NCBI GenBank assembly: GCA_021927905.1
Contig: BLLK01000047.1
Location: 124,001 to 188,000 of the forward strand
DNA length: 64,000 bases
Direction: 5' to 3'
Source: Chaetoceros tenuissimus
Taxonomy: Eukaryota > Bacillariophyta > Thalassiosirophyceae > Chaetocerotales > Chaetocerotaceae
Shown in pieces: positions 3,001 to 63,105 of the stretch. A program made the translations under genes and the position numbers. Under the pieces are notes generated by a model. It searched no databases, was not told the origin of the DNA, and saw only the letters and a list, made by a program, of their open reading frames with translations. The stretch's first letter is position 1, and the number at the start of each line of letters is the position of its first letter.

Positions 3001-3672
3001 TGCTACTAACTGTCCGAACGAGCTTGATCCTGTGACTGGCTTGTATGCATCAGGATGTTGTGATAATGTGAACTTTCTAGAGCTCTTTATCCAGACACTC
3101 TACAACACTCAAGATTGCTCTAATGTTGTTGGGCCTGAAACAAATGTGTGTACCTTCATTCAATCAAGAGCGAATCATGACGTATTCAGTAGTCCATCAG
3201 GAAACATGCCAAACCTGATCTGGCTGGGTGTAAGTTTTGGAATGAGATGATTGTTTTTATTCTTTTCAACTTGTCACTTATTATTTTTTGTTAGGAACGT
3301 ACCATTTTAGCAAGACTTTATGTTAATGCTTGTGGATCAGGATGTTCTTTGAGCTCTAGCTGGATGTTACCTACAAATCATTGTAGTTGGTCTGGTGTTG
3401 TATGTAACACCGACAATCAAATTATCTCTCTTGATTTATCAGGCCAGACTCTTTCCGGACCATATCCAACCGATATGAACTCATTGGACCTAATGACTTC
3501 TCTCAACTTATCTGGAAATAATCTACTCGGACAGGTTCCAAATATTATTTGCGAGAAATCAGAAAGCAACGCTTTGTCTCTAATTGGTGATGCGCAGAAT
3601 TGTCCAAATCTATACAATGCAACCTCTGGTGAATACCTTGATGGCTGCTGCGATACTGTATTCATTGCATAA
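1..3672 (+). CDS. Modular leucine-rich-repeat surface protein, 5' end outside window
   Basis: Exons are <1-23, 88-603, 671-3229 and 3295-3672; introns 24-87, 604-670 and 3230-3294 are GTAAGT..AG and all phase 0. The product is a chain of modules of about 172 residues. Each has a Cys pair (NCGSSCAGWL), an LRRNT-like CxWxGVTCD motif, two LRRs (LSVLDLSQNYLSGGVP), a CPN/GCCD Cys patch and a NWNWLQER linker. This resembles the N-terminal ectodomain of plant LRR receptor proteins and the secreted LRR proteins of diatoms, so a cell-surface or secreted binding role is inferred. Every intron lies at the same point of a module, between WL-x and E/D-R. The central modules have lost or never had introns. 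The last module stops early at GCCDTVFIA, so it is truncated relative to its siblings. No kinase or membrane segment is seen; the N-terminus is missing. Confidence 0.8.
1148..3211 (+). repeat. Tandem 516-bp coding repeat, four units
   Basis: The NWNWLQER-encoding sequence recurs at 1148, 1664, 2180 and 2696, exactly 516 bp (172 codons) apart. Units 1664-2179 and 2180-2695 read identical base for base by eye; the outer units differ by scattered changes. This indicates very recent in-frame unequal crossover or gene conversion, or possibly an assembly artefact. Confidence 0.9.
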
Positions 3673-3953
3673 TCATAAATTTGAAAGATAACCTCTCTCC
3701 TTTTTATTTTTTGTCTTTTTAGTCCCATTTGAGTAAATGCGAACTCCAAGTTGAAGTGAATGTTCTCATCGAACGACACCTACAATTGAGACGCGAAAAA
3801 ATGAAGGAAAGATTGCATCAAGCTTCGGTGGTTCTAATTGGATAAAACCAAATCATGACCAAATTGAGAGTTACATTTCCATTATACGATTTACAAAATG
3901 TTTTGGATAGAACGTATTCATATCATAAATAATCCATCTTATCTAATTCAAGA

Positions 3954-4817
3954 ATGAAGTTCCATACCAAAAGCTGTGTCGTCTTTTTCTGTGCTGTGAA
4001 TTCTGTTCAGGGCAGAATTTATGTTCCGATGTGCAAAGAAATTGAAAGAAACTAAATAGTTCAAGGCAAGATTGTAAATGGCGACAATAATAACTTGAAA
4101 AAATTAGTTGAAGTCAGGTGTTACGATTATGACCAAACTGCTGCATTTACTGGAAACGCCGAATTTACTAACCCTGATCAAGAGCCATTAAAATCTTCGG
4201 AAAACGGAAACTTTGCCGTAAAGTATTGCGATTTGAGTACAAGAAATCCTATTTCTGGATGAGACTTTTCGTTGTGGAATAAAAAGAGTAGACACCCTGA
4301 TATCTTCTGCGAGTTCTCTCGCGACAAAGACTTCATGAAAGTTACAACTGACATCAAATGGAACTATGAAGACAAGGTCCTGGACCTTGGTAACATCACT
4401 GTTTACCCCAAAAGGTATTCCGACACACAACCATCTGATTCAGATGTATATTGTCAGATGGATGGACCTTCTGGAACAGTCCTTGGCCCGAAGTTTGCAT
4501 CTGGCGACTTCTACAAGACTAAGTTCAGCCCTGCATGCCAAAACTTTGACTGTTGCTATGCTTCTAGCGGAGGTAACAAAACCCTAGTGGCCAAATGTGT
4601 AAAGGAGTTCGATGCTGTAACAGATAGTATTTGCAATGCTCGTTTGAGTAAGTTGAATTGGTCACTTGACAGTTGTGATACCAAGGCAAAGGAGATGTAC
4701 AACGACTTAAATATGACTTATCTCCATAACGTGAATGTTACCGAGTCTGAAAAGATTTACAATTATACCGACGAATTCAAGCATTCTTCGCACTGTAAAG
4801 GCAATGATTGGGATTGA
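3954..4817 (+). pseudogene. Broken gene for a secreted Cys-rich protein
   Basis: An ATG at 3954 opens a frame beginning MKFHTKSCVVFFCAVNSVQG, which looks like a signal peptide. The same frame continues to a stop at 4815-4817 and is interrupted only by TAA at 4053 and TGA at 4260. Between and after these stops the translation looks coding (Cys-spaced, with N-glycosylation sites such as NMT and NVT). Without the stops it would be 287 residues. I see no GT..AG intron of sensible length that removes either stop, so a pseudogene is the simplest reading; stop read-through or sequence error is possible. No family is recognised. It lies 281 bp downstream of the LRR gene. Confidence 0.6.
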
Positions 4818-5535
4818 ATCGCTCCATTTCAAATCCCTTTCTTGTTCCGCTTTTTAGGAAAAAGTAATTTGGATATGCAGTAGGAATTTCTGTGATAATA
4901 TCTAGATTACTCATACATCAAATTAAATAAAACTATTCAAAGGAATTATAAGTACTGTTTATTGACTTTCTTGTGGCAAGTGGTCATCACGTTGTAACTA
5001 CAATCGGCGATATTTCACATGGCTTCTTTTTTTCTTTTTACTTCTAGGAATGGCAAGCTAGACTGAAATAAGTGTGTCTTCATATGAAACATAAAATAAT
5101 CACTAGCATCCAGGATGTGAAAGAGAAAATTTAATTGAACATGCTGGTTGTAGAAGACATTTTTGAAAAGTAGAAATTCATTTTTGAAAAGAAGAAGCCT
5201 CATTATTACAGCTAAACTAGTGCTTTTAGATTCAGGGGCTTATGTAAATCTATACAAGTGGGACTTAAACTTCAAAGAATGTGTCCTAGAAATGCAGGAT
5301 TTTAGTGGGAGCCCAACATTTTTTCGTCCACCGCGCACCTTCATCTGGAATCTTTTTTTTCTTCATTTGTTCCACGATCGAATACATTATCTACCCATTA
5401 CATATCTATTACAATCTATTCTATCTATCATCTATTATCAAAGAAAGCGAACAAAAGTACTGACAACCTACTTTGTGCTTGACTTGTAAAGCAGTTTTCT
5501 CTGTCTTCTTGTTCTCATTTCATTACCTTCCTTTC
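4818..5535. other. Intergenic, no gene seen
   Basis: About 720 bp of AT-rich sequence. Short ORFs on both strands have low-complexity translations without domains or signal peptides. It presumably holds the promoter of the FG-GAP gene. No RNA gene or repeat was recognised. Confidence 0.6.
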
Positions 5536-8433
5536 ATGTCAAAAGCGCGCACCTCCATGATGAAATCTTCACTCGCATCTCTGCTCGTAGTGTCCACTCT
5601 CATGTGCAGCAGTGTAAATGGAAATCATAACAGGTCGGGAGTAAAGCAGACGGATGAAGAAGAAACAACAGACATTTTTATGTTCAAAAATGAGAAATGG
5701 TTACGTTCAGAGCATACTTGTGATGAAATATTTTGTTCCAATGGAGAAAATTGCGGCAACTCAAAATGTGCAGGATGTGATTATAATTGCAGTGGTCAGT
5801 GTCCTGCAACACAAACAACTTGTGCGGTAAATTGTGATGAATCAAAGTGTTCCGAAAGAATATGTTCAAGCTGTCAATTTTGTTCCTTTACAAAAATCTG
5901 TCCAAAGGGTACCTTTGATGATGTGACAGATTCCATGTTTTCTTCCAATCCAGATTGGTACTCGTTTGGTCACTCTGGAATGCCATATCCTCATCAAAGT
6001 GCACCGTTATTTGTGGATTTGAATGGAGATGGTATCCTTGATTACTTCAATAGTATGCATGGTCACAAGTTTGATAGAGAAAAAGATAAAGATGGAATCA
6101 TTAAGTCAGATAGAATGGAACTCGCAATCTCAGTTAGTTCCGAGAGTGCAAGCAGTACACAGATTCTGCAGTCGGTAGCAGAACGGATAATATTTGAAGG
6201 CGATGATACAGAGGAATTCTTGAACAAGTTTGGAATACCCGGAGTTGATACCCATGGACAAAACATATTAGATTTGGATGGAGATGGTATTCTAGATCTG
6301 TACATAGCTCAGGGAGGTAACCAAGGGAAAGGAACATATAAGCCACCAATGCGCTATAACATGTTACTTTTTGGAGAGTTGGATGAAAATGGCAACACTA
6401 TATTTAGAGGCGGTCGTGCCGTAGCTGAACAAGCAGGTGTCCACATGGAGAACGGGAGGGGAAGAATCAACTACATGCTAGGTAAGGCAAATACTGTGTT
6501 TGTAGTTCTTGACCAATTACCGATTATTTTGAAACACTGCAAAGAATGATTACTGATACCAACGATTCGACTCTCTTTCCATATTACTTCAAGATGTGAA
6601 CGGCGATGGTCTAATTGACATTTTTTGTTTGCAATCAAGAAGAGTTGACAATTTGATTACTCCTGGCGTATTACTAATCAATCAAGGAAATAGGACTTGG
6701 GTCGAGGATGATAGTATGAAGGAATTTGCAAATACAATAATTTTGACGGATGCTGATGGGGATGGTGTCGCAAATGAAATCATGATTGTCAGAGGCAATT
6801 GCTTCCCACAAAGGGAAGATCCAGATTTGGACCCTAAGTACCCTGAATATGGACCATTTACGGAAGAAGTAATTAACTTTTGTGCAACAAGGCCAGTTGG
6901 ATCTACAGCAATTTACAAATATAATCCATCGCTGAAACGAATGGTTGAACTGACTGCATCCTACTACAATGTTCCCAAAGCAAAGAATCTCCAACCACCA
7001 TGCTGCCCTCTTGGTAGCTTTGATGTTGAATGCTCCGCAGTTTCAATAGCAAGTTCAGATTTTGATAACGATAGAATTGCTGATCAAGTTGTTCTTCATT
7101 GGGATAGACTGACATTCTACTTTTCATCCGATAGAGAAAAAGGCGAACTCCCAGTGAATGACAAAAAAGGGTTAGTTGTTAAACTTCCAGACTATTGTGG
7201 GGCTGGTCTATCTGTCCGTATCGTAGATATTGATAATGATTCAAAGGTGGAAGTTCTTATATTTTGCAAGAATCCAGGTGCTTTCGTCATTTACAGGGAG
7301 GGAATGAACGCAAAACAGTGGATCCTTCATAAAGCCTGTAATGATAATAGTTCATTGGGGGATATGAATGATATTTCTCTAGCCTATGGGGACTTCAACG
7401 CATTATTCGCTGATAAAGACTGTTCAGCTATAGCAGAAGAGACTTTTAGAAATTACTGTTTGGATTATCAAGAAAATGGAAATACTTATCAAATAGGTGC
7501 AACAGGGCTCGCCATGGTTGACATAGATAATGATGGTTTCACTGATGTAGTGGTTTCGAATCAAGTTGGGTATTTGAGATTTTTCCAAAATAATCCCTCC
7601 TCGTTGAAGAAGGATAATAAGTTTATCAAATTCAAAGTAAAGGGGAATGGCTCAACAAGTAATGTGTATGGGATAGGGGCTACTGTGATCCTATTCGCAA
7701 AGGCGAATGGCCGCATAAGTTCGCAGGTTAGAGAAATATCTCACCACCAACATGTTTCTGATAATACCGGGAGTGGCGATGATCGAATAACGTTTGGGTT
7801 AGCAAAGAATTTAAAACCAATGCGAGTTCAAATTGTATGGCCTAATAAAAAGAAACAAATTCTAAGCATCAAAGATTGGTCATTTTCAAAACAAAAGATG
7901 GAAACGATGGAGCTTCTCGACTATTCAGGTGAGTGCCACTTGTTTCTACTTTGTACATGTTTTTTTGGTTTCTTTTGTTCGCTTATAACCATTTCAATTT
8001 TGTCGCAGATCTTGCTTTCTTTACGATACAACCTGCTATGTCAATGCAAGGGCAAATATCATGGTGCCTTGCAACTGGAAGAAACAAGGACGGTGCAAAG
8101 AATAAGATTGAATTGGAAGAATGTTCGGCTGATGGCATCCTGCGAGAATTCTTTAGATTTGACAAGAAAGGAAGGTTGAGGAGTCTTCGTTATAAAAGTT
8201 ACTGTATTGAACCTATAGATGGTACTACGGCATTTTCACCATTACAAATGCAAAAATGTTCAAAAAGTAAGACATCCTGGCTTTTAGATAGTAGCGGTCA
8301 CTTTTGGGCTAATGGTTCAAAGGTTGCACTCTCTGTCTCTATGATTGAAGGCGACGTTAAAGTTCCATTTTTGTCATTGGTCGAGGAGAAGGAAAATATA
8401 ATACAAGAATGGAAGCTTACACGTAGAGATTAG
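5536..8433 (+). CDS. Secreted FG-GAP/VCBS repeat protein with ASPIC/UnbV domain and lectin-like C-terminus
   Basis: Model join(5536-6481, 6594-7928, 8009-8433), 901 residues; both introns split a GAT codon after its G, so reading phase is kept. Start choice: ATG 5536, with MMKSSLASLLVVSTLM at 5557 supplying the hydrophobic signal peptide. A Cys-rich segment follows (residues about 55-120). Then come Ca-binding-like FG-GAP/VCBS repeats: DLNGDGILD, DLDGDGILD, DVNGDGLID, DADGDG, DFDNDR, DIDNDS, DIDNDGFTD. An ASPIC/UnbV-like segment follows (VYGIGATVILFAK through VQIVWPNKKKQ). The last exon has a Cys pair around CLATG and CIEP and a QEW, suggesting a ricin-B-like beta-trefoil. FG-GAP plus ASPIC is the CRTAC1-like architecture, extracellular and likely adhesive or carbohydrate-binding. 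The lectin assignment is tentative. Confidence 0.8.
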
Positions 8434-8942
8434 GAAACTGTACTCTTCAAAGCTTCATGACTGCTCTATTTTGCAAAAGATCTTCATGGATAGCTAACCA
8501 TATCCTGAGCAAAGAGAGGCTTGGCATTGTCCCCTGCCTTTGCACAATGTGTTTTTGCGCGTACTCATTATATATTACTCTTGAACTCTAAAAGATGTAC
8601 TCTATCATTTTATAAATAGTAAGACTAAATGATGAAGTAAATAAGTTTGAGTACCTTACTCATTGCATCCGTCATCAGTTAAAAGAAAAAGAAAGAATTT
8701 ATCTCTCTTTTTTTTTCATCCAAGGAAACAATCTTCTTCTTCTATTTTACCTTTTATGGCTAGTGTTCAGCTTTCATTTATCTGGCTATGTGAACACTCA
8801 AACAGACAACAAAAACTTTTGAACTGTTTACATGATGAATAGAATGTTCATTACGGTGCTTTACTCTGCCTACCTTAGTGAACAAAAGCATCAATGTCCA
8901 TTCATAGTAATCAAATAAACTAAAGTTAAGCTAGAAAAAGAG
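8434..8942. other. Intergenic, no gene seen
   Basis: About 500 bp, AT-rich with poly-T tracts, between two genes in the same direction. It should contain the terminator of the FG-GAP gene and the promoter of the TEN1-like gene. No conserved element was identified. Confidence 0.5.
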
Positions 8943-10562
8943 ATGCTGTCAAATGAAGGGAATCCGGCGTTTTCTGCAACTCAAGAAATTGACGCCGACC
9001 AGCAGCAGCAAACTGTCATTGACTCATCTCACATTCACAGTCCCTTGCATTCCATGAAAGAAACCGACAGATGTCAACACGATGATGATGAGAGTGTCTA
9101 CTCGAATGGATCAGGTCCTCAGTCTCAAGCTTTCAATCAGCATAATTCAGGAAATGAATGGAATACACAAACTCAAGAAAGAATGCCGTTCTTTACTCAG
9201 ACACAAATGCAAGCTGGAAATGAATATTTTTCATATAATAATGACAATGATGAAGATATAATAAGAGAAGGAATAGATTCGAATGAGAAGAATGGACATG
9301 AAGAGAATAGCTTGTTAGAAAATATAGAGTCTATTTCAAAAGATGCACAAGGAGAAGCTTTGACAGAGAATGATGGACATCATGAACAAGAAAGATTCAA
9401 TGCTTCTGCAATTGATATGTCGAGTGAGTTAAAGCCTGAAGAGGAAAAGAAGTCAGCAAGTCAGACATCAAGTGATGAGCAAAAAGCAAAGAGCGTTCCG
9501 ACGGGAGAAATTCCATTAGTAGAACGATTGCCTTCGAGAAATGTTACTTTTCAATCGGCTACAATCCTGACTGTGCCAGAATTATCTTCTTGCATCTATG
9601 CTTCTACAAAAGCAAAAGCATGTTCATCGGAAGAAGAAGCTCAATGTATATTTGAAAACAAGCCTTTGACGGATGTAAGAGTGACTGGAGTAGTACAACA
9701 AATTGTAATCACAAATGATGCACAAGGCAATCAAAAATCATTTGTAGTTTTGGGTGATGCCCTATTTGTTGCTCCGAAACGACAAACAGGTACTTTGAAC
9801 CGCAATAGGTATCAGTCATTTAGTAAAAAGAATACATCTTTTTCAAAACTGCACATGACTCCGAAAAAGATTAATACCACCGCACAAAGGAATCTCAAGA
9901 CTCCATCATCTTCCACCTCTACATTATCCATGAAAACACCTCAAACATTTTCTACACAGAAAACTCCATCTACCAATACTCAACCGAAAGCAATGATTGG
10001 AACATCGCTTTCAGGTAAAAAGAGAAGACTTGTAACTGTCAAACCAAAGGTACACAATAGTTTATTAAATCGCAAGAATATAGCGACGCCATTGAATCCG
10101 ATTCGACCTAATACTCTAAAATCTAGAATGAATTCGACAAGGATAGATCGTCGACAACAAGAATTGGTTCAAAAAGTAAAGCAAGGGATGCATATCATCA
10201 TTGTAGATGTGACAGATACTACATTGGAAGGATGTAAAGTGGATGATTTAATCATGATTATGGGGAGTATAGCTTGTACACCTTTACCGAATGAAGAGAG
10301 TGGACGATATAATATGCTGTCGGCATTGGGTGTCATTCAAAGTAATTATGCACATTCTACTAGGGAAAGCGAAAAAGACTCAAAAGATACTTGTACCAAA
10401 GGAGATACTTTGGATGGAAAGAAACAAGAAGCTATGCACAAAATGGGAATGTATGTTCAAGCACGAATATTGCAAGTTGTCAATGGGACAGATATGAATT
10501 TACTTCAAAAGGCATTGGAATTGCGGCGCAAACATGTTGAAAATACATATAATACTAGCTAG
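8943..10562 (+). CDS. TEN1-like OB-fold protein (CST telomere complex candidate)
   Basis: Single-exon gene, 539 residues. Residues 1-190 are acidic, Gln/Ser-rich and probably disordered. A beta-rich segment at about 195-285 (LTDVRVTGVVQQI, SFVVLGDALFVAP) is followed by a Ser/Thr/Lys/Pro-rich insert (about 286-400), then VDDLIMIMGSIA and finally VQARILQVVNGTDMNLLQKA with LELRRKHV. The order RVTG - VxxLxxxxG - (V/L)xARxLxxVxGxDLxLLxxALxxRR matches TEN1 of plants and animals, the small OB-fold subunit of CTC1-STN1-TEN1, which caps telomeres and helps polymerase alpha fill-in. TEN1 is usually about 120 residues, so this would be TEN1 with a long N-terminal tail and loop insertions. This is recognised by motif spacing only; another OB-fold protein is possible. 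Confidence 0.5.
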   Translation: MLSNEGNPAFSATQEIDADQQQQTVIDSSHIHSPLHSMKETDRCQHDDDESVYSNGSGPQSQAFNQHNSGNEWNTQTQERMPFFTQTQMQAGNEYFSYNNDNDEDIIREGIDSNEKNGHEENSLLENIESISKDAQGEALTENDGHHEQERFNASAIDMSSELKPEEEKKSASQTSSDEQKAKSVPTGEIPLVERLPSRNVTFQSATILTVPELSSCIYASTKAKACSSEEEAQCIFENKPLTDVRVTGVVQQIVITNDAQGNQKSFVVLGDALFVAPKRQTGTLNRNRYQSFSKKNTSFSKLHMTPKKINTTAQRNLKTPSSSTSTLSMKTPQTFSTQKTPSTNTQPKAMIGTSLSGKKRRLVTVKPKVHNSLLNRKNIATPLNPIRPNTLKSRMNSTRIDRRQQELVQKVKQGMHIIIVDVTDTTLEGCKVDDLIMIMGSIACTPLPNEESGRYNMLSALGVIQSNYAHSTRESEKDSKDTCTKGDTLDGKKQEAMHKMGMYVQARILQVVNGTDMNLLQKALELRRKHVENTYNTS

Positions 10563-56293: not shown

Positions 56294-59200
56294 ATGTCTC
56301 CCAAAGAAACAGAAGGAGAAATAAAAGTAAACGATGTTTCTCAAATGTCATCATCAACCGTTTCAAGAATCATATTTCCAAGAAATGAACAAGATGTCAA
56401 AGAGATTCTTCAATCCGCATACGAATTGAAAAAAAGAATTGGTATCAGAGGTACCAAGCATTCAATGGGAGGTCACTCTATCCCATCGAATACAGGATGG
56501 CAGATTGACACAAAGTTTTTGAGAAGAGTGGAATACAATCCTGATTTTCCGAATCAAGTCAAGTGTCAACCGGGAGCTACTTGGGCTGATTTAATTTCGT
56601 TATTGAATAAATATGGAAAAGCTCCGAGGACTATGCAGTCTTATTGTACCTTTAGTGTCGGTGGTACACTCGCTGTGAATGCACATGGGATTACTACAGA
56701 TTACTGTCTAGCTGAGAGTGTTTTGGAAATGAGACTTGCCCGAGTGAATACCAAAGGCAAAGCGGAAATTAGAACATGTCGTGCACCGGACCTTACAACT
56801 AATGCAAATTCTATAGAAAGTGAATTATTTCGATCCACTATTGGCGGATATGGATTGTTTGGTATCATGACGGAAGTAACTCTGAAAGTAGTGGATAACG
56901 TGCACTTGGAATTAGATAGCATGATCCTATCACTTCAATGTCCAGATATGGAAGAAGAATCGGAATTTGTACGTATTTATGATAATTGTCGAGGACAAGA
57001 TCAACATTTTGTCGATGGAGAACTCTCACTTGGAAGCACTGGTTTGGGAGCTGTTGAAATTAAAATTGCTAGAATGAATACCATCAATCTAGAGAAAGCT
57101 TCTTTATATGTCTTTCGAAGAAACTCAGATGCGTCTTCTGTATCCGATCTTCCAGTGGCACCAAGAGAACTTACTCCTACTTCGAGATTGTTATATAAAT
57201 GGCTTTTACCATTGGCAAAAGAAATGAGGTATTCCAAGGAAGAGAAATCTGGAGAAGCCTTGGATTGGAATCAGAATGATATAATGACCAAAAATCATCT
57301 TTTGTATGAAAGTGCTGTTCCCATGGCAACTCTTTACAATCCTTTAGTGAAAAAGAATGATACTTTTGTGTTGCAAGAATTCTTTTGTCCGCATGATAAA
57401 TTTTCGGAATGGATTGAGCAGGCCAAACCAATCTACAAGGAATTAGAGAGGGAACAGCATAAAAAGGAGCAAGAAATTATTTTGCTCAATACAACTATAC
57501 GTTATGTGGAAAAGGATGACTCTACAGTGTTAAGTTATAGTCGTGATGAAAAGGGATCATTTGCATTTGTGCTCTACTTTCGTATTGATATTGATGAAGA
57601 AGTGGAAAAACGATTAGGTGTCATTCACAATAAGCTCGCGGAAATCACAGTTAGCTTAGGTGGTACCTTCTATTTACCATATCGAAGATGCTATTCTCAA
57701 GAGTTATTGAAAAGGGCTTATCCTATGATTGGAGATTTTGCAAAATTAAAGGAGAAATATGATCCGCATACTTTATTTGGAAATCCATGGTTTGACGAGT
57801 ATGTTCTTCCGCATTGCTCGAAAGAGTATCAAGTGAAATGGACTTTGTTGCAGCGGCAAGCGAAGAATCGACTAGAGAAAACTGGATCCATTATGGATGC
57901 AAGTAAATTTTCTTCGTGGCTGCCTCGATGTGATCAGTCGACCTTGATTAGGAGAAACAATAGTTATAGAACTCTCCTTCGATCCAAAACTATGCGTGAT
58001 GATTTTAGACAAAAGTTTTTGGTAAACATTTTCCATTTGGCAGATCCAAATGAAGTTATGAGAGCCATGACTAGATTTGCATGGGATCCTAGAAACACCG
58101 ACGATTTTCACATCTACAAATGTTTATTCAAATATTTCAATGGCAATGAAAGAGGTGCTATAACCAAGGTACAGCAAAATCTTCGAGCTTTAGAGCAACT
58201 GAATCAACAGAAGAATGAGCTCACCAAGGAGACAGTAAGCATATTATCAAAGCTGGGGAAGGTCGATTCTATTCATTCATATGCATGCTTTGGAGATAAT
58301 GGAAAGACCGTCCACCGTTTTATCAAAGAATTATCTATTGTCGGGATGATCTATGTCGTCCATGATGCTGATATTGACAAAGAGAATAATTACATGCCTG
58401 ATCTAACTACTGTCCTTGAAAGGGGTTCTTTGAACTCAGTAGCAGACAAACAGATCAAGTATGACTATATGTCGGATAATGCCGCATTGAAATTATCATG
58501 CATTCCTTCTGGTTCTGTCGATCTGATCACGATGAACCAAGGCCTGCATCACATTCCCATCGAGAAACTACATGGCTTTCTAGTCGAGGTAAATAGAATT
58601 CTTAGTCCAAGTGGAGTTTTCATCCTTCGAGAGCATGATTTAGAAGTGAAACAAGGAGATGGAAAGGTTCCGTATGCTATGTTAGATTTAGCCCATTCTG
58701 TCTTCAATGCAGTCACTGGTGTACCTCTAGCAGAGGAACAAAAAGAAATAAGAGCTTTCAGGTCTATAAGTGAATGGCGGGAGATAGTTGAAAAAGTTGG
58801 ATTCCTAGATACAAGGATATATGAAGTTGAAGAAGGTGACCCAACATGGGACGAGATGATGGCTTTCATCAAAAATGTTGAAGGAGATGTTGAGTCACCT
58901 ACAATGCAAAAAGGACAAGTATGCAAAAGTGGGTCTAATGAATATCCCCCAATGAAAGAGTTGGTTGCCACTCTTTTGCAGCAAATACCACAAGCATCCT
59001 TGAATTTCGCAATGAATTTGCTTGATTATATTAACGCCTGGTTACCAAAGATTGAAAGTGCAATATCATACAAGCTCTTGAATGGAATTCCAGAGCTCAT
59101 AAAAGAGGCTAATTTGAATCCATCGGTGTCAAGGGATATTATAAAGCAGGTAGTAAATGTGATTGAGCCTTCTGTTGGTGAGATTATTAGACAAATTCAA

Positions 59201-61351
59201 GTATTAGCCAAGGGAGCTCGCGATATGTTTGCGAAAGCTGAACCGAAAGAATACTTCAAGTTGTTCAAAATGGGAAACGAAGTATTTCTGATACTTCCAT
59301 ACCTCGCTAAAAAGGTACACTTGAATAGAGAAATGTGCAGTGATGTTGAGATTATTCTTGTCGATTTTGTAAAAACGAAATTATCTTTTCTTTTGCCCCA
59401 AGAGATGCAGGAAGAAAGTAATTTGGAATCGGGTGGTGTTTCGAACGAGGCAGAGGAAAGTATGGATGAAAATAATATCTCTACTGATGAAGTTCAGGAA
59501 ATGTTGATAAAACTTTCTCAAGAAATTCCAGAACTGCTTGATCCTCAAAAGCTAGTAGCAGAAAGCGGCTTCTCTTTAATGCAACAAACTGCGATACTTG
59601 GTAGAATTGGTGCAAGTGACATTGAATCCACAGCACAAATATTGTCTAATTACCTGACTCCAGAGATTTGGAATGGGATGAAAAATCATTTGACAAATGT
59701 TATCGACTCTCGTGACTTGCCTACCAAGGCAAGGCTTCTCTCGTCAAACGATAATCATCCTTGGTACCGTGTCCTCAGAACATTTCTTCAAAGTCCGCGT
59801 GTGCTGCTAAATCAACAAGCCACAAGAACTTTGAAATTCATGGGATTAAATGAGCTTCTTGTCATTTACAAACAGGCAAAGAGAGATCATGAGACACTCC
59901 GTTTTTCTTCTTCTGATCAATTTACACTTCAATATCTTGATGAATCCGATCGAAGTATAGCAGATTTGAACAAAGATTGGAGAGCAGACGTTGTCAAGAA
60001 AGTAATTACATTTGACAATGGCTACCGGTACTGCTTGCATGATGTTGCAGAGATAATCGAGGCCAAGTTTGGATACAAAAGTATAACTAGCCGAAAGGTT
60101 GATGTTACCAAAGAGCTAAGAGACTTGCACAAGCAAATTCACAAGAATTTAAGCGATGAAAGTATAAACACTACAAAAACATCTGACAACAAGTACCATC
60201 ATATTGGGTTCCTTCCCTTAGATGAGGAAAAATTGATTGAAATGAGAAACAAAGGGGATGCTCAAAAAGAGCTTGGGGACAGTTTGCGCAGAAGTCTTGT
60301 TAATGTTGCAACCTTGGGAGCTGCGGGAAATAATCAACTGAAAATAACGTATCGAAAGATTTCAGTCTCTACCCAAGTTTCAACTGGAAGCCAGGTGATG
60401 TCAACGTTAGATAGAGGCTTCATTGAAAATCTTGGATCCCTATCTGAATCTGTTTGTGCAATGCTCGAAGGGAAAGGCATTGTAAGATCAGATTTACACC
60501 CTCTTGATGGGGTGTGGACTTGGTTCAAGCTAAACGAATGGATGCAAGTAGAGATGCTCGATGAACTTGTGAAGAGTCTTGAACATACACCTTGGTACAG
60601 GTTTCCTTACATGGGATTCCTAGGAACATATTTCAAAGTTTTCAAGAAGCAAACAGAGATTGTGAAAGAAAAGTATGGAGTAGAAAGCGCATATGCGAGC
60701 GGTGCTTTCATAGTCAACTTTGTACCAGCTATTGTAATGTCCATGCTTTTTGCGCAGCTCAAGATGCTTGCTTTCCCACTCGAAATGACTATGCCAGAAG
60801 ATGGCTATGATCATGATCCAAGTAGATTCCTTGAAGAAGTACTTTTACATATCAATTTTGACGATAGAGATGCTATAGCTGATCTTGATGGCTTTTGCAA
60901 GTCAAACATTCACCCGAAAATTGTAAAGGCAGCACTACTTTCAAACAATTTTGCCCTTATCTCTACTCCTCCATTCAAAGCTATGGGTGAAATATTGAAA
61001 AAGATATCAGTACAATATCCAACTGCAAGAGTGTTTCAAATATCCAATCAAAAAGAAGTCCAAGTAAGAGTCTCAAAAAGTTTTCTTTCAAACAATGACG
61101 CAAAGCAAGAGGCAGAGGTTGAATTTGAACGATTGAAAAGTCTCGCTGGATGTAAAGTCATGATGGACTTTGCATGGCCCAGTACATATTTTAATCGGAA
61201 AAGAAATGAAAATGACACTCATGATATGAGTGGACAAGGAAAGACATTTTACTGTTTGGAAGTCAAGTGCATCGCATTGTTGGATCTTTTCCGATTATGC
61301 AGCATGCTAGACCATTTTGAAGTCGATCAAGTGTTTGACTTTTGGAACTAA
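56294..61351 (+). CDS. FAD-linked oxidase / methyltransferase fusion with long unassigned C-terminus
   Basis: 1685 residues in one exon. Residues about 25-215 form a PCMH-type FAD-binding domain: IFPRNEQDVKEILQSA, GIRGTKHSMGGHS (FAD diphosphate loop, His candidate for covalent flavin), TWADLISLL, FSVGGTLAVNAHGI, GGYGLFGIMTEVTL. Residues to about 505 are an aldonolactone-oxidase-like C-domain ending KYDPHTLFGNPWF, as in gulonolactone and arabinonolactone oxidases. Residues about 655-870 are a SAM-dependent methyltransferase-like domain with VDLITMNQGLHHIP and VNRILSPSGVFILREHD (class I motif post-I/II-III). Residues 880-1685 are helical, with an acidic linker near 1040-1075 and PWYRVLRTFLQSP / TPWYRFPYMGFLG motifs; no family recognised. 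No signal peptide. Substrate unknown; oxidation followed by methylation of one small molecule is a plausible inference. Confidence 0.8.
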   Translation: MSPKETEGEIKVNDVSQMSSSTVSRIIFPRNEQDVKEILQSAYELKKRIGIRGTKHSMGGHSIPSNTGWQIDTKFLRRVEYNPDFPNQVKCQPGATWADLISLLNKYGKAPRTMQSYCTFSVGGTLAVNAHGITTDYCLAESVLEMRLARVNTKGKAEIRTCRAPDLTTNANSIESELFRSTIGGYGLFGIMTEVTLKVVDNVHLELDSMILSLQCPDMEEESEFVRIYDNCRGQDQHFVDGELSLGSTGLGAVEIKIARMNTINLEKASLYVFRRNSDASSVSDLPVAPRELTPTSRLLYKWLLPLAKEMRYSKEEKSGEALDWNQNDIMTKNHLLYESAVPMATLYNPLVKKNDTFVLQEFFCPHDKFSEWIEQAKPIYKELEREQHKKEQEIILLNTTIRYVEKDDSTVLSYSRDEKGSFAFVLYFRIDIDEEVEKRLGVIHNKLAEITVSLGGTFYLPYRRCYSQELLKRAYPMIGDFAKLKEKYDPHTLFGNPWFDEYVLPHCSKEYQVKWTLLQRQAKNRLEKTGSIMDASKFSSWLPRCDQSTLIRRNNSYRTLLRSKTMRDDFRQKFLVNIFHLADPNEVMRAMTRFAWDPRNTDDFHIYKCLFKYFNGNERGAITKVQQNLRALEQLNQQKNELTKETVSILSKLGKVDSIHSYACFGDNGKTVHRFIKELSIVGMIYVVHDADIDKENNYMPDLTTVLERGSLNSVADKQIKYDYMSDNAALKLSCIPSGSVDLITMNQGLHHIPIEKLHGFLVEVNRILSPSGVFILREHDLEVKQGDGKVPYAMLDLAHSVFNAVTGVPLAEEQKEIRAFRSISEWREIVEKVGFLDTRIYEVEEGDPTWDEMMAFIKNVEGDVESPTMQKGQVCKSGSNEYPPMKELVATLLQQIPQASLNFAMNLLDYINAWLPKIESAISYKLLNGIPELIKEANLNPSVSRDIIKQVVNVIEPSVGEIIRQIQVLAKGARDMFAKAEPKEYFKLFKMGNEVFLILPYLAKKVHLNREMCSDVEIILVDFVKTKLSFLLPQEMQEESNLESGGVSNEAEESMDENNISTDEVQEMLIKLSQEIPELLDPQKLVAESGFSLMQQTAILGRIGASDIESTAQILSNYLTPEIWNGMKNHLTNVIDSRDLPTKARLLSSNDNHPWYRVLRTFLQSPRVLLNQQATRTLKFMGLNELLVIYKQAKRDHETLRFSSSDQFTLQYLDESDRSIADLNKDWRADVVKKVITFDNGYRYCLHDVAEIIEAKFGYKSITSRKVDVTKELRDLHKQIHKNLSDESINTTKTSDNKYHHIGFLPLDEEKLIEMRNKGDAQKELGDSLRRSLVNVATLGAAGNNQLKITYRKISVSTQVSTGSQVMSTLDRGFIENLGSLSESVCAMLEGKGIVRSDLHPLDGVWTWFKLNEWMQVEMLDELVKSLEHTPWYRFPYMGFLGTYFKVFKKQTEIVKEKYGVESAYASGAFIVNFVPAIVMSMLFAQLKMLAFPLEMTMPEDGYDHDPSRFLEEVLLHINFDDRDAIADLDGFCKSNIHPKIVKAALLSNNFALISTPPFKAMGEILKKISVQYPTARVFQISNQKEVQVRVSKSFLSNNDAKQEAEVEFERLKSLAGCKVMMDFAWPSTYFNRKRNENDTHDMSGQGKTFYCLEVKCIALLDLFRLCSMLDHFEVDQVFDFWN

Positions 61352-61845
61352 TGAAGTGGATGAGACTTATTTATCATAATTGTTGTTGTTGTTATATGTA
61401 AAAGAGAAGAAATGGACATGTATATATTTTCATCATTCATTTCGCAATTACGCATTTTTGGAAAAATTTGTCATGCCTACCCTTTCTTGTGTATTTTATC
61501 GTATAATCTATCATTCCTTCGATTTCAACAATTTTTATACTTCTGTAAAGGGATTCACTGTGTTAGAGTTTTTAATGATTGTATGAACCTGGAGCTTATT
61601 TCTCGCTTTATTTCCAAATCAAAAATATATATATATTTTAAAATGAAATTCTCCCTCATCGAACTATTTTAGTCAATAGATCCTTGTTTGACACTGTCAA
61701 AAGACATTTCAAGTTGTCAAATTCATAGAGAAAGAAAAACGTCAGAGATGAAAGAATTGAACAGTGGTTTTCCTATTTATGCCCATAGACATATCTAATA
61801 CACTGTTTTGTACCATCTCAGCTTTCACATATTCCGGATTTGATA
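61352..61845. other. Intergenic, no gene seen
   Basis: About 490 bp, AT-rich, between two forward genes. Short ORFs lack features. Confidence 0.5.
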
Positions 61846-63105
61846 ATGCGTCATCTCGGTGAGTATTTTGCGTCGCTTTGCTTGTTAAAATTGCTGCTCT
61901 TTGTAGTTCTATCAGGAGTTTCTCGGGTCCATGTTGTCAAAGCAACTAGCAGTAACATGAGTCCTGCGGCAACTGCTGAGCATGAGTGTCCAATAAACAA
62001 TAATATTTCTCACTCATTCCTCGTAGATAAGAGCAATGAGTACGATGTACAAGCACACACGAGCAAATTAAGCACATCCTTTTACGAAGAATGGAACAGT
62101 GCCTTCCCTCCATCTTCTATTTTGCATAGTTACGATGAGAGTGACCCACAAACTGCTATTCAAGCTATAAGTGAATCTTTTGTATTTTGTACCAAGCACC
62201 TTCCAACAGACTTGGTTTCAAAACTGCTTTCTTTTCCTTATGATCCGAGTGCCCCAAGCTACCTCGTTATCCGTAATTTACCGATCGAGTCACTCAATAA
62301 TGTTCCTCCTACACCATTCAGAAACCACCTTTTTGAAAATGAACCCAATCATAAGGAACTTGTACCGATAGCATTGACTTGGATATTGGGTATCAGTAGA
62401 CTCTTGGGCCATCTCACTTGTCCTCCTTCCTTTAATAAGGCAATCAAAGAGCGTTTGATTAGATCAGTCACACAGTTTCCACACGAACATGGAATTTTAC
62501 CAATGCATCGTGACTATGCAAGAAAAGTCCAAGCAGGAGGAATTGAACCGGAGTTTCTCATCTTATTTGGTATTCGAAGTGATGAAGAAAGTTCTGTAGC
62601 TACTGTCATTACTGATAATGAAGAATTGATCCAACTTTTAGATCAGGATGATATTGAAATTCTTCAAAAGTTCAAGATTCAAATGAGCATGACTCGTAAA
62701 CCCGGTGCTGCAGAGAATGACGGAGAAGTGGAAAATTTTCCAATTGGAAACTCATTTTATGCCATTGATCCTATTGAAAAGGGTATGGTTACTCTCTATG
62801 GGCTTCCAAATGGTGTACCTACAAGTCCAGATGGAGGTGAAGCTGCTGTCGCTGCATATAAGCGAGTAGAAGCAATTGCTTTTGAGCATGGCGACAGGGT
62901 GGTATTGGGACCAGGAGACATGTTGATTCTTAACAATGCAAGAGCGGTGCATGGCAGAACTTCATACGATTCCAACATTCCAATTGGAGATAAGAGCAGA
63001 TGGATGATTAAGTCATACGTGACAAATGCAATGTGGAAAGGGACTGGTACAGATGGGAGTGGTGGAAGAGTTGAATATCCATCTTTATCAATTTTTAGAA
63101 AGTAG
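61846..63105 (+). CDS. Secretory Fe(II)/2-oxoglutarate dioxygenase-like protein (TauD/clavaminate synthase type)
   Basis: 419 residues from ATG 61846 (a TTG two codons upstream is not used). N-terminal signal peptide MRHLGEYFASLCLLKLLLFV. The double-stranded beta-helix enzyme core is seen from metal ligands HxD in MHRDYA (His221, Asp223), the distal His in LNNARAVHGRTSY (His369), and the 2OG-binding Arg in DKSRWMIKSYV (Arg385). A strand with YLVIRNLPI and GPGDMLILNNARAVHGR matches clavaminate-synthase-like enzymes, which hydroxylate or desaturate small molecules or amino acids. A signal peptide is unusual for this mostly cytosolic family. Substrate unknown. Confidence 0.7.
   Translation: MRHLGEYFASLCLLKLLLFVVLSGVSRVHVVKATSSNMSPAATAEHECPINNNISHSFLVDKSNEYDVQAHTSKLSTSFYEEWNSAFPPSSILHSYDESDPQTAIQAISESFVFCTKHLPTDLVSKLLSFPYDPSAPSYLVIRNLPIESLNNVPPTPFRNHLFENEPNHKELVPIALTWILGISRLLGHLTCPPSFNKAIKERLIRSVTQFPHEHGILPMHRDYARKVQAGGIEPEFLILFGIRSDEESSVATVITDNEELIQLLDQDDIEILQKFKIQMSMTRKPGAAENDGEVENFPIGNSFYAIDPIEKGMVTLYGLPNGVPTSPDGGEAAVAAYKRVEAIAFEHGDRVVLGPGDMLILNNARAVHGRTSYDSNIPIGDKSRWMIKSYVTNAMWKGTGTDGSGGRVEYPSLSIFRK

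Follow-up and report, generated by a model that had tools for sequence, protein, structure and literature searches.

In the 64,000-nucleotide stretch of the Chaetoceros tenuissimus genome analysed here (the window), a single open frame encodes a 1685-residue protein made up of an FAD oxidase domain, a methyltransferase (MT) and a long C-terminal part, which – to judge from sequence comparison – probably represents the merger of a set of bacterial genes into a single one, enlarged by an insert of about 500 residues. The third member of that set is a protein of about 350 residues encoded downstream of FAD-MT, for which we have coined the name EPWY after a motif. As best explanation we propose, with roughly even confidence, that the diatom protein is a fused small bacterial set of FAD oxidase, MT and EPWY, to which about 500 residues were added between the MT and the EPWY-like domain, and that it would combine oxidation and methylation with a non-catalytic EPWY partner. 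Its parts, in window coordinates, are the following.

56294..61351, forward strand: the whole gene, a single open frame of 1685 codons plus stop, with coding signal, and the sole self-match in the genome.
56327..57808, forward strand: residues 12–505, FAD oxidase domain of the VAO/PCMH type, from FAD_binding_4 and domain-wide matches to bacterial FAD oxidases.
57947..58873, forward strand: residues 552–860, methyltransferase with an N-terminal extension, from Methyltransf_11 above its cut-off and colinearity with bacterial MTs.
58874..60493, forward strand: residues 861–1400, region between the MT and the EPWY-like domain, with Pfam and PDB matches below threshold only, helix-rich by eye.
60494..61348, forward strand: residues 1401–1685, tentative EPWY-like domain, from the EPWY profile score and the order of secondary structure.
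60692..60775, forward strand: residues 1467–1494, the most hydrophobic stretch of the protein (Kyte–Doolittle 19-residue maximum of 1.97 at residue 1471).
60839..61336, forward strand: residues 1516–1681, alpha/beta part of the EPWY-like domain, from a partly confident AlphaFold2 model.

As read from the DNA sequence, the frame at 56294–61351 (+) is real and uninterrupted. It opens with an ATG, upstream of which lies an in-frame stop with seven sense codons in between. Coding signal was scored in four segments (1–515, 560–870, 871–1400 and 1401–1685), with the codon use of three further open frames from the window as reference; frame 0 gave +0.185 to +0.220 bits per codon in each of them, frames 1 and 2 were negative in all four, and these scores gave no sign of two genes or of an assembly join. 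The original prediction of a single 1685-codon frame is borne out by the open frame and its coding signal, and it was right about the order of the parts, from oxidase through methyltransferase to a large C-terminal portion. In the diatom's own genome the protein matches only itself at E ≤ 0.01; the five ALO-type matches are located elsewhere.

The N-terminal domain is a flavoprotein of the VAO/PCMH type, with FAD_binding_4 at residues 25–148 scoring 67.4 bits against a Pfam cut-off of 26.4. The ALO family (PF04030) falls below its own cut-off at residues 358–502 (17.7 against 23.1 bits, Pfam), and the sugar-1,4-lactone oxidase family TIGR01678 of NCBIfam reaches 43.5 bits against a cut-off of 396.8; as such NCBIfam scores lie far under their cut-offs, we do not class the protein as a lactone oxidase. 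With the sugar-1,4-lactone oxidases, L-galactono-1,4-lactone dehydrogenase and DprE1 it has in common the half that binds FAD and, weakly, a C-terminal half of ALO type, yet it scores far below the family cut-offs, so that the earlier label ‘aldonolactone-type’ is a fair superfamily hint rather than a family membership. Among the 31 PDB sequences listed for the oxidase profile are L-galactono-lactone dehydrogenase, DprE1, cytokinin oxidase and xylitol oxidase, from families in which an alcohol or lactol carbon is commonly oxidised; none of the 31 carries a name that indicates fusion to a methyltransferase. The diatom domain has a histidine just before an S-x-G-G motif, the position that we take to bind flavin covalently in related oxidases. 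Of 103 bacterial rows examined (some loci repeated), 98 showed the motif and 85 of these have the histidine.

Bacterial relatives of this oxidase are numerous. On plasmids, tblastn returned ten matches, five spanning nearly the whole FAD domain (24.8–27.7% identity) and five covering only its first part; when genomes were scanned with the FAD alignment, at least 554 relatives were confirmed among the 593 pattern matches listed. In two of the best 80 loci, which were kept, an MT like the diatom's follows the FAD domain in the same frame: Undibacterium terreum (L066) and a Ralstonia metagenome-assembled genome (L078). Residues 12–858 of the diatom protein are colinear with the 736-residue Undibacterium protein P0005 (30% identity, 3e-81), a homology that takes in both domains of a bacterial FAD-MT fusion. 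The fusion had been put forward as unlike any recognised; for its FAD-MT part this no longer holds. A more divergent FAD-MT fusion is found in L094.

Within the order to which Undibacterium belongs, 399 genomes were covered and 5 had full-length FAD-MT at E ≤ 1e-60, a count that includes the L066 genome (G001) taken as centre. A profile of the MT alone found 1 of 249 genomes in the phylum of that genome, namely the centre itself, and 2 of 139, L155 and L156, in the phylum that includes G409, the Planctomycetaceae-titled genome from which L065 comes. L155 carries a DUF805-FAD-MT fusion of 878 residues (3608–6241, +) followed by EPWY; in L156 DUF805-FAD (8160–9893, −), MT and EPWY are three adjacent genes. 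DUF805 is thus fused to the N-terminus of the oxidase in both, and lies upstream in L066. Shortly downstream of EPWY, L155 also has a carbon-nitrogen hydrolase gene (7549–8619, +). Going by these sequences, the oxidase-methyltransferase combination is rare but pre-existing in bacteria, not confined to the diatom protein. The bacterial loci with an FAD-MT fusion and an EPWY gene (L066, L078, L094, L139–L142 and L155) have the domain order of the diatom protein and are colinear with it over 860 residues; they differ in being two genes rather than one, in having no counterpart of the insert of about 500 residues between MT and EPWY, in an identity of only 25–30% where measured and in FAD domains that do not group with the diatom's in the tree.

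The methyltransferase assignment starts from Methyltransf_11 at residues 731–778 (25.4 bits against a Pfam cut-off of 21.2), where only positions 51–95 of the 95 in the profile are matched. The domain is colinear with the MT half of fusions L066, L078 and L139–L142 and with the stand-alone MT of L156, and its best PDB profile matches are METTL6 (E 1.5e-4) and bacterial S-adenosylmethionine (SAM) methyltransferases. Class I SAM methyltransferases share with it the second half of the domain and the GLHH motif; the diatom MT differs from them, by eye, in a divergent motif I and an extra N-terminal extension of about 100 residues. Motif I reads CFGDNG in the diatom as against EIGxxGR in six of seven bacterial rows (again by eye), and GLHH, ERG, RxHD and LAHxVFNA are all retained.

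EPWY follows the MT directly and on the same strand in all nine bacterial loci in which this MT was seen (L066, L078, L094, L139–L142, L155 and L156), although in L094 it is a 108-residue piece at which the contig ends; all five fusion genomes of the Undibacterium order have it directly downstream, and in L078 the FAD-MT and EPWY genes overlap by four bases. Against Pfam the family stays below every cut-off, NCBIfam gives nothing, and its one PDB match (E 0.2) is meaningless. An AlphaFold2 model of a bacterial EPWY (mean pLDDT 85.6) begins with helices and continues as an alpha/beta part of order E-E-E-H-E-E-E-E-H-E.

The partnership of EPWY with the oxidase extends beyond the methyltransferase loci. 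EPWY lies near the FAD oxidase in 25 of the best 80 loci (from at least 554 relatives), 23 of them without an MT: besides the two MT fusions these are 14 Bradyrhizobium loci and nine others, comprising three Acidobacteria, one from Gemmatimonadetes, one from Hyphomicrobiales and four further bacterial loci. Three of these last four we take to be Patescibacteria. Since EPWY is on the opposite strand to the oxidase in 20 of the 25, such pairs are neighbours rather than operons. Among four plasmid loci fetched, EPWY occurs in three, all roseobacter; two of these are annotated and place it one gene away from the oxidase. In the Legionella plasmid locus L007 it is absent within 6 kb. A proteobacterial sample of 398 genomes has EPWY in 20 and a long FAD match in 14, of which 10 are also among the 20 (9 of 13 without the centre). 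Samples of Nomurabacteria and Acidobacteria have EPWY in 2 of 239 and 2 of 149 genomes, respectively, centres included, and in a genome from the Acidobacteria-phylum sample FAD and EPWY share one 828-residue frame (L118:1501–3984, −). That the same genes occur separate, overlapping and fused is good evidence that their products work together. If the proposed explanation is right, the diatom gene would join the annotations ‘FAD-binding oxidoreductase’, ‘methyltransferase’ and ‘hypothetical protein’ as one functional unit, and the EPWY family, found from Patescibacteria-type genomes to Proteobacteria, would be singled out, with laboratory bacteria as the place to find the reaction.

Two further kinds of neighbour recur in 17 chosen loci, including L014, L035, L044, L050 and L054. 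A BLASTP cluster of small proteins accompanies the oxidase and EPWY in 8 of the 17 (five of the eight were tested with Pfam, DUF4383 being above cut-off in three and below it in two); a second cluster, in 6 of the 17, consists of alpha/beta hydrolases in the four members tested, all above cut-off.

The C-terminal part of the diatom protein, some 800 residues that had been left without assignment, keeps that status as far as Pfam and PDB are concerned, although its last 285 or so residues resemble EPWY. The domain search originally suggested for residues 880–1685, run here on 871–1685, gave sub-threshold Pfam matches only (best E 0.042) and PDB matches no better than E 0.55. BLASTP detected no internal repeat in the C-terminal 811 residues, and an EPWY copy within 871–1250 was rejected, the profile scoring −1.7 bits.

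In our assessment the last 285 or so residues are probably a divergent EPWY domain: the statistics suggest it, but rival alignments compete and some of the tests fail. A profile of 48 EPWY members gave 12.1 bits on residues 1353–1685, as against 6.3 for the best of 1084 other open frames (stop to stop, at least 300 residues, many perhaps not genes) and 6.9 for the best of 3000 shuffles. With 35 members the score was 6.8 bits on the whole diatom protein and with 44 members 11.7 on residues 1351–1685 (best of 2000 shuffles 8.9), a rise to which the shortening of the target contributed. When the profile began 30 columns ahead of PWY, it reached 9.8–10.3 bits (best of 3000 shuffles 4.9, best open frame 6.8); with this version, hhalign recovered a PWY block (P 0.0006) and a PRY-IAGN block (P 0.012), ordered as in bacteria. 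Pairwise BLASTP of the diatom end against EPWY gave E values of 0.10 and 0.15. We lowered the assignment slightly on two counts: a conflict of register, as the best HMMER block pairs diatom residues 1409–1467 with the TYPEW part and not with the PWY part of the register we adopted, and a global test in which 16 of 1000 shuffles equalled the score and a different stretch of the diatom protein exceeded it. For the alpha/beta half alone, the profile does not exceed the nulls. The PWY/PRY register was preferred because it reproduces the secondary structure – a judgement made before the AlphaFold2 model of the diatom end – and both the HMMER TYPEW register and one placing LAGC with IAGN were set aside.

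Structure prediction, which had also been proposed, took in residues 1353–1685 modelled together with EPWY rows in an alignment chosen beforehand, and came out only partly confident, with a mean pLDDT of 61.6 and block means of 75–93 over model residues 161–240 and 82–90 over 301–330, falling to 64–69 over 241–270 and 45–57 over 271–300. Within these limits of confidence and of a pre-chosen alignment, the model shows the EPWY elements in order plus three extra helices. Foldseek found no PDB match at E ≤ 0.001 for either the bacterial EPWY or the diatom model; among the weak top matches, acetolactate synthase small subunits and aspartate kinase regulatory domains, presumably ACT/ferredoxin-like folds, appear for the two models alike. 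What the diatom end has in common with the EPWY family is its position after the methyltransferase and the PWY and alpha/beta elements in order; most conserved residues, among them PRY, IAGN and EHxYDY (alignments, by eye), are lost, and the homology is accordingly tentative.

One could instead suppose that only the FAD-methyltransferase part is of bacterial type and that the C-terminal 825 or so residues are a lineage-specific scaffold and no kin of EPWY. We regard this as rather unlikely, given that the EPWY profile scores exceed those of all 1084 other open frames and 3000 shuffles, that the position of the C-terminal end agrees with the bacterial gene order, and that its secondary structure runs in the same order as that of EPWY in the partly confident model.

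No phage relatives were matched; viral contigs gave no pattern match with the full protein and, with the FAD-MT alignment, 33 pattern matches of which none was confirmed; and PHROGs yielded a SAM methyltransferase family (E 0.0023) and three weaker, uninformative matches. A plasmid tblastn with residues 503–1685 returned seven records at E 0.3–0.9, one annotated as a methyltransferase, which we took as noise.

How the parts came together is approached through the FAD domain, for which, of the domain phylogenies once envisaged, trees were built. In both (75 rows, and 39 hand-picked rows) the diatom falls outside the bacterial fusions, on a branch of 2.5 and 2.39 changes per column, and the AU test on the 39 hand-picked rows, with this long diatom branch, rejects a single FAD clade of the diatom and the seven bacterial FAD-MT fusions then known (p 0.00011); L155 and L156, found later, are not included. 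Two readings fit: the gene neighbourhood is ancestral and fusion was repeated, or the diatom is misplaced through long-branch effects. On the tree as it stands, the diatom may have fused separately. Taken further, the rejected clade and the several different fusion states among bacterial genes would favour independent fusion in the diatom line of genes acquired separately or merely adjacent, the likeness to the bacterial fusion being a repeated event; we nonetheless consider this improbable, as the extreme length of the diatom branch makes its placement unsure and the MT alignment takes in the same extension before the SAM-binding part. The fuller form of the history we prefer – that the diatom took up a bacterial three-gene operon of FAD oxidase, methyltransferase and EPWY and merged it, in operon order, into a 1685-residue polypeptide with a new region of about 500 residues, as a eukaryotic member of a widespread bacterial oxidase-EPWY partnership – stands somewhat short of an even chance. 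If true, it would be a candidate example of a eukaryote that has retained a set of bacterial genes as a single gene.

For the function, the module of oxidation followed by methylation that had been predicted remains the likeliest reading, because both domains are fused or encoded by adjacent genes in bacteria too; its chemistry we can only infer, and the same applies to the substrate, the order of reactions and the role of the EPWY part. By comparison with aldonolactone and sugar oxidases and DprE1, the FAD domain would act on a polyol-like or lipid-linked substrate and oxidise one of its hydroxyl or lactol carbons; with S-adenosylmethionine, the tethered methyltransferase would then methylate the oxidised product, and the EPWY-like domain might serve as a non-catalytic partner for substrate binding, regulation or membrane positioning. 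Some of the bacterial genes have an alpha/beta hydrolase and membrane proteins nearby, which would suggest that the compound handled is a lactone, an ester or lipid-linked, and that it is processed close to a membrane. A carrier role of the C-terminus, once suggested, found no evidence in the form of a carrier domain; its alternative, a lipid-binding part, may apply, as lipid or membrane association would fit the N-terminal hydrophobic anchors or signal peptides of the bacterial partners (by eye) and the hydrophobic stretch at residues 1467–1494.

A catalytically degenerate protein, no longer a two-step enzyme but a scaffold or a sensor of redox state, would account for the altered motif I of the MT and for the missing EPWY motifs, but sits poorly with the four retained MT motifs and with the histidine before S-x-G-G, and we hold it to be very improbable. 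A literature search by title and start of abstract, with most subscription journals outside its coverage, found neither the fusion nor the gene set described, and EPWY has no published name.

As to the surroundings of the gene, the next open frame downstream in the window (61840–63105, +) has an end that resembles 2-oxoglutarate/Fe(II) oxygenases by eye. The genome as a whole (41 Mb, 68 contigs) has 11 matches to silicic acid transporters, the best at 705.6 bits, which marks the host as a diatom; outside the window, at G000:C17:442278–446357, three consecutive ones fall in a reported open frame of 1459 residues, one of the matches there being listed with two internal stop codons.
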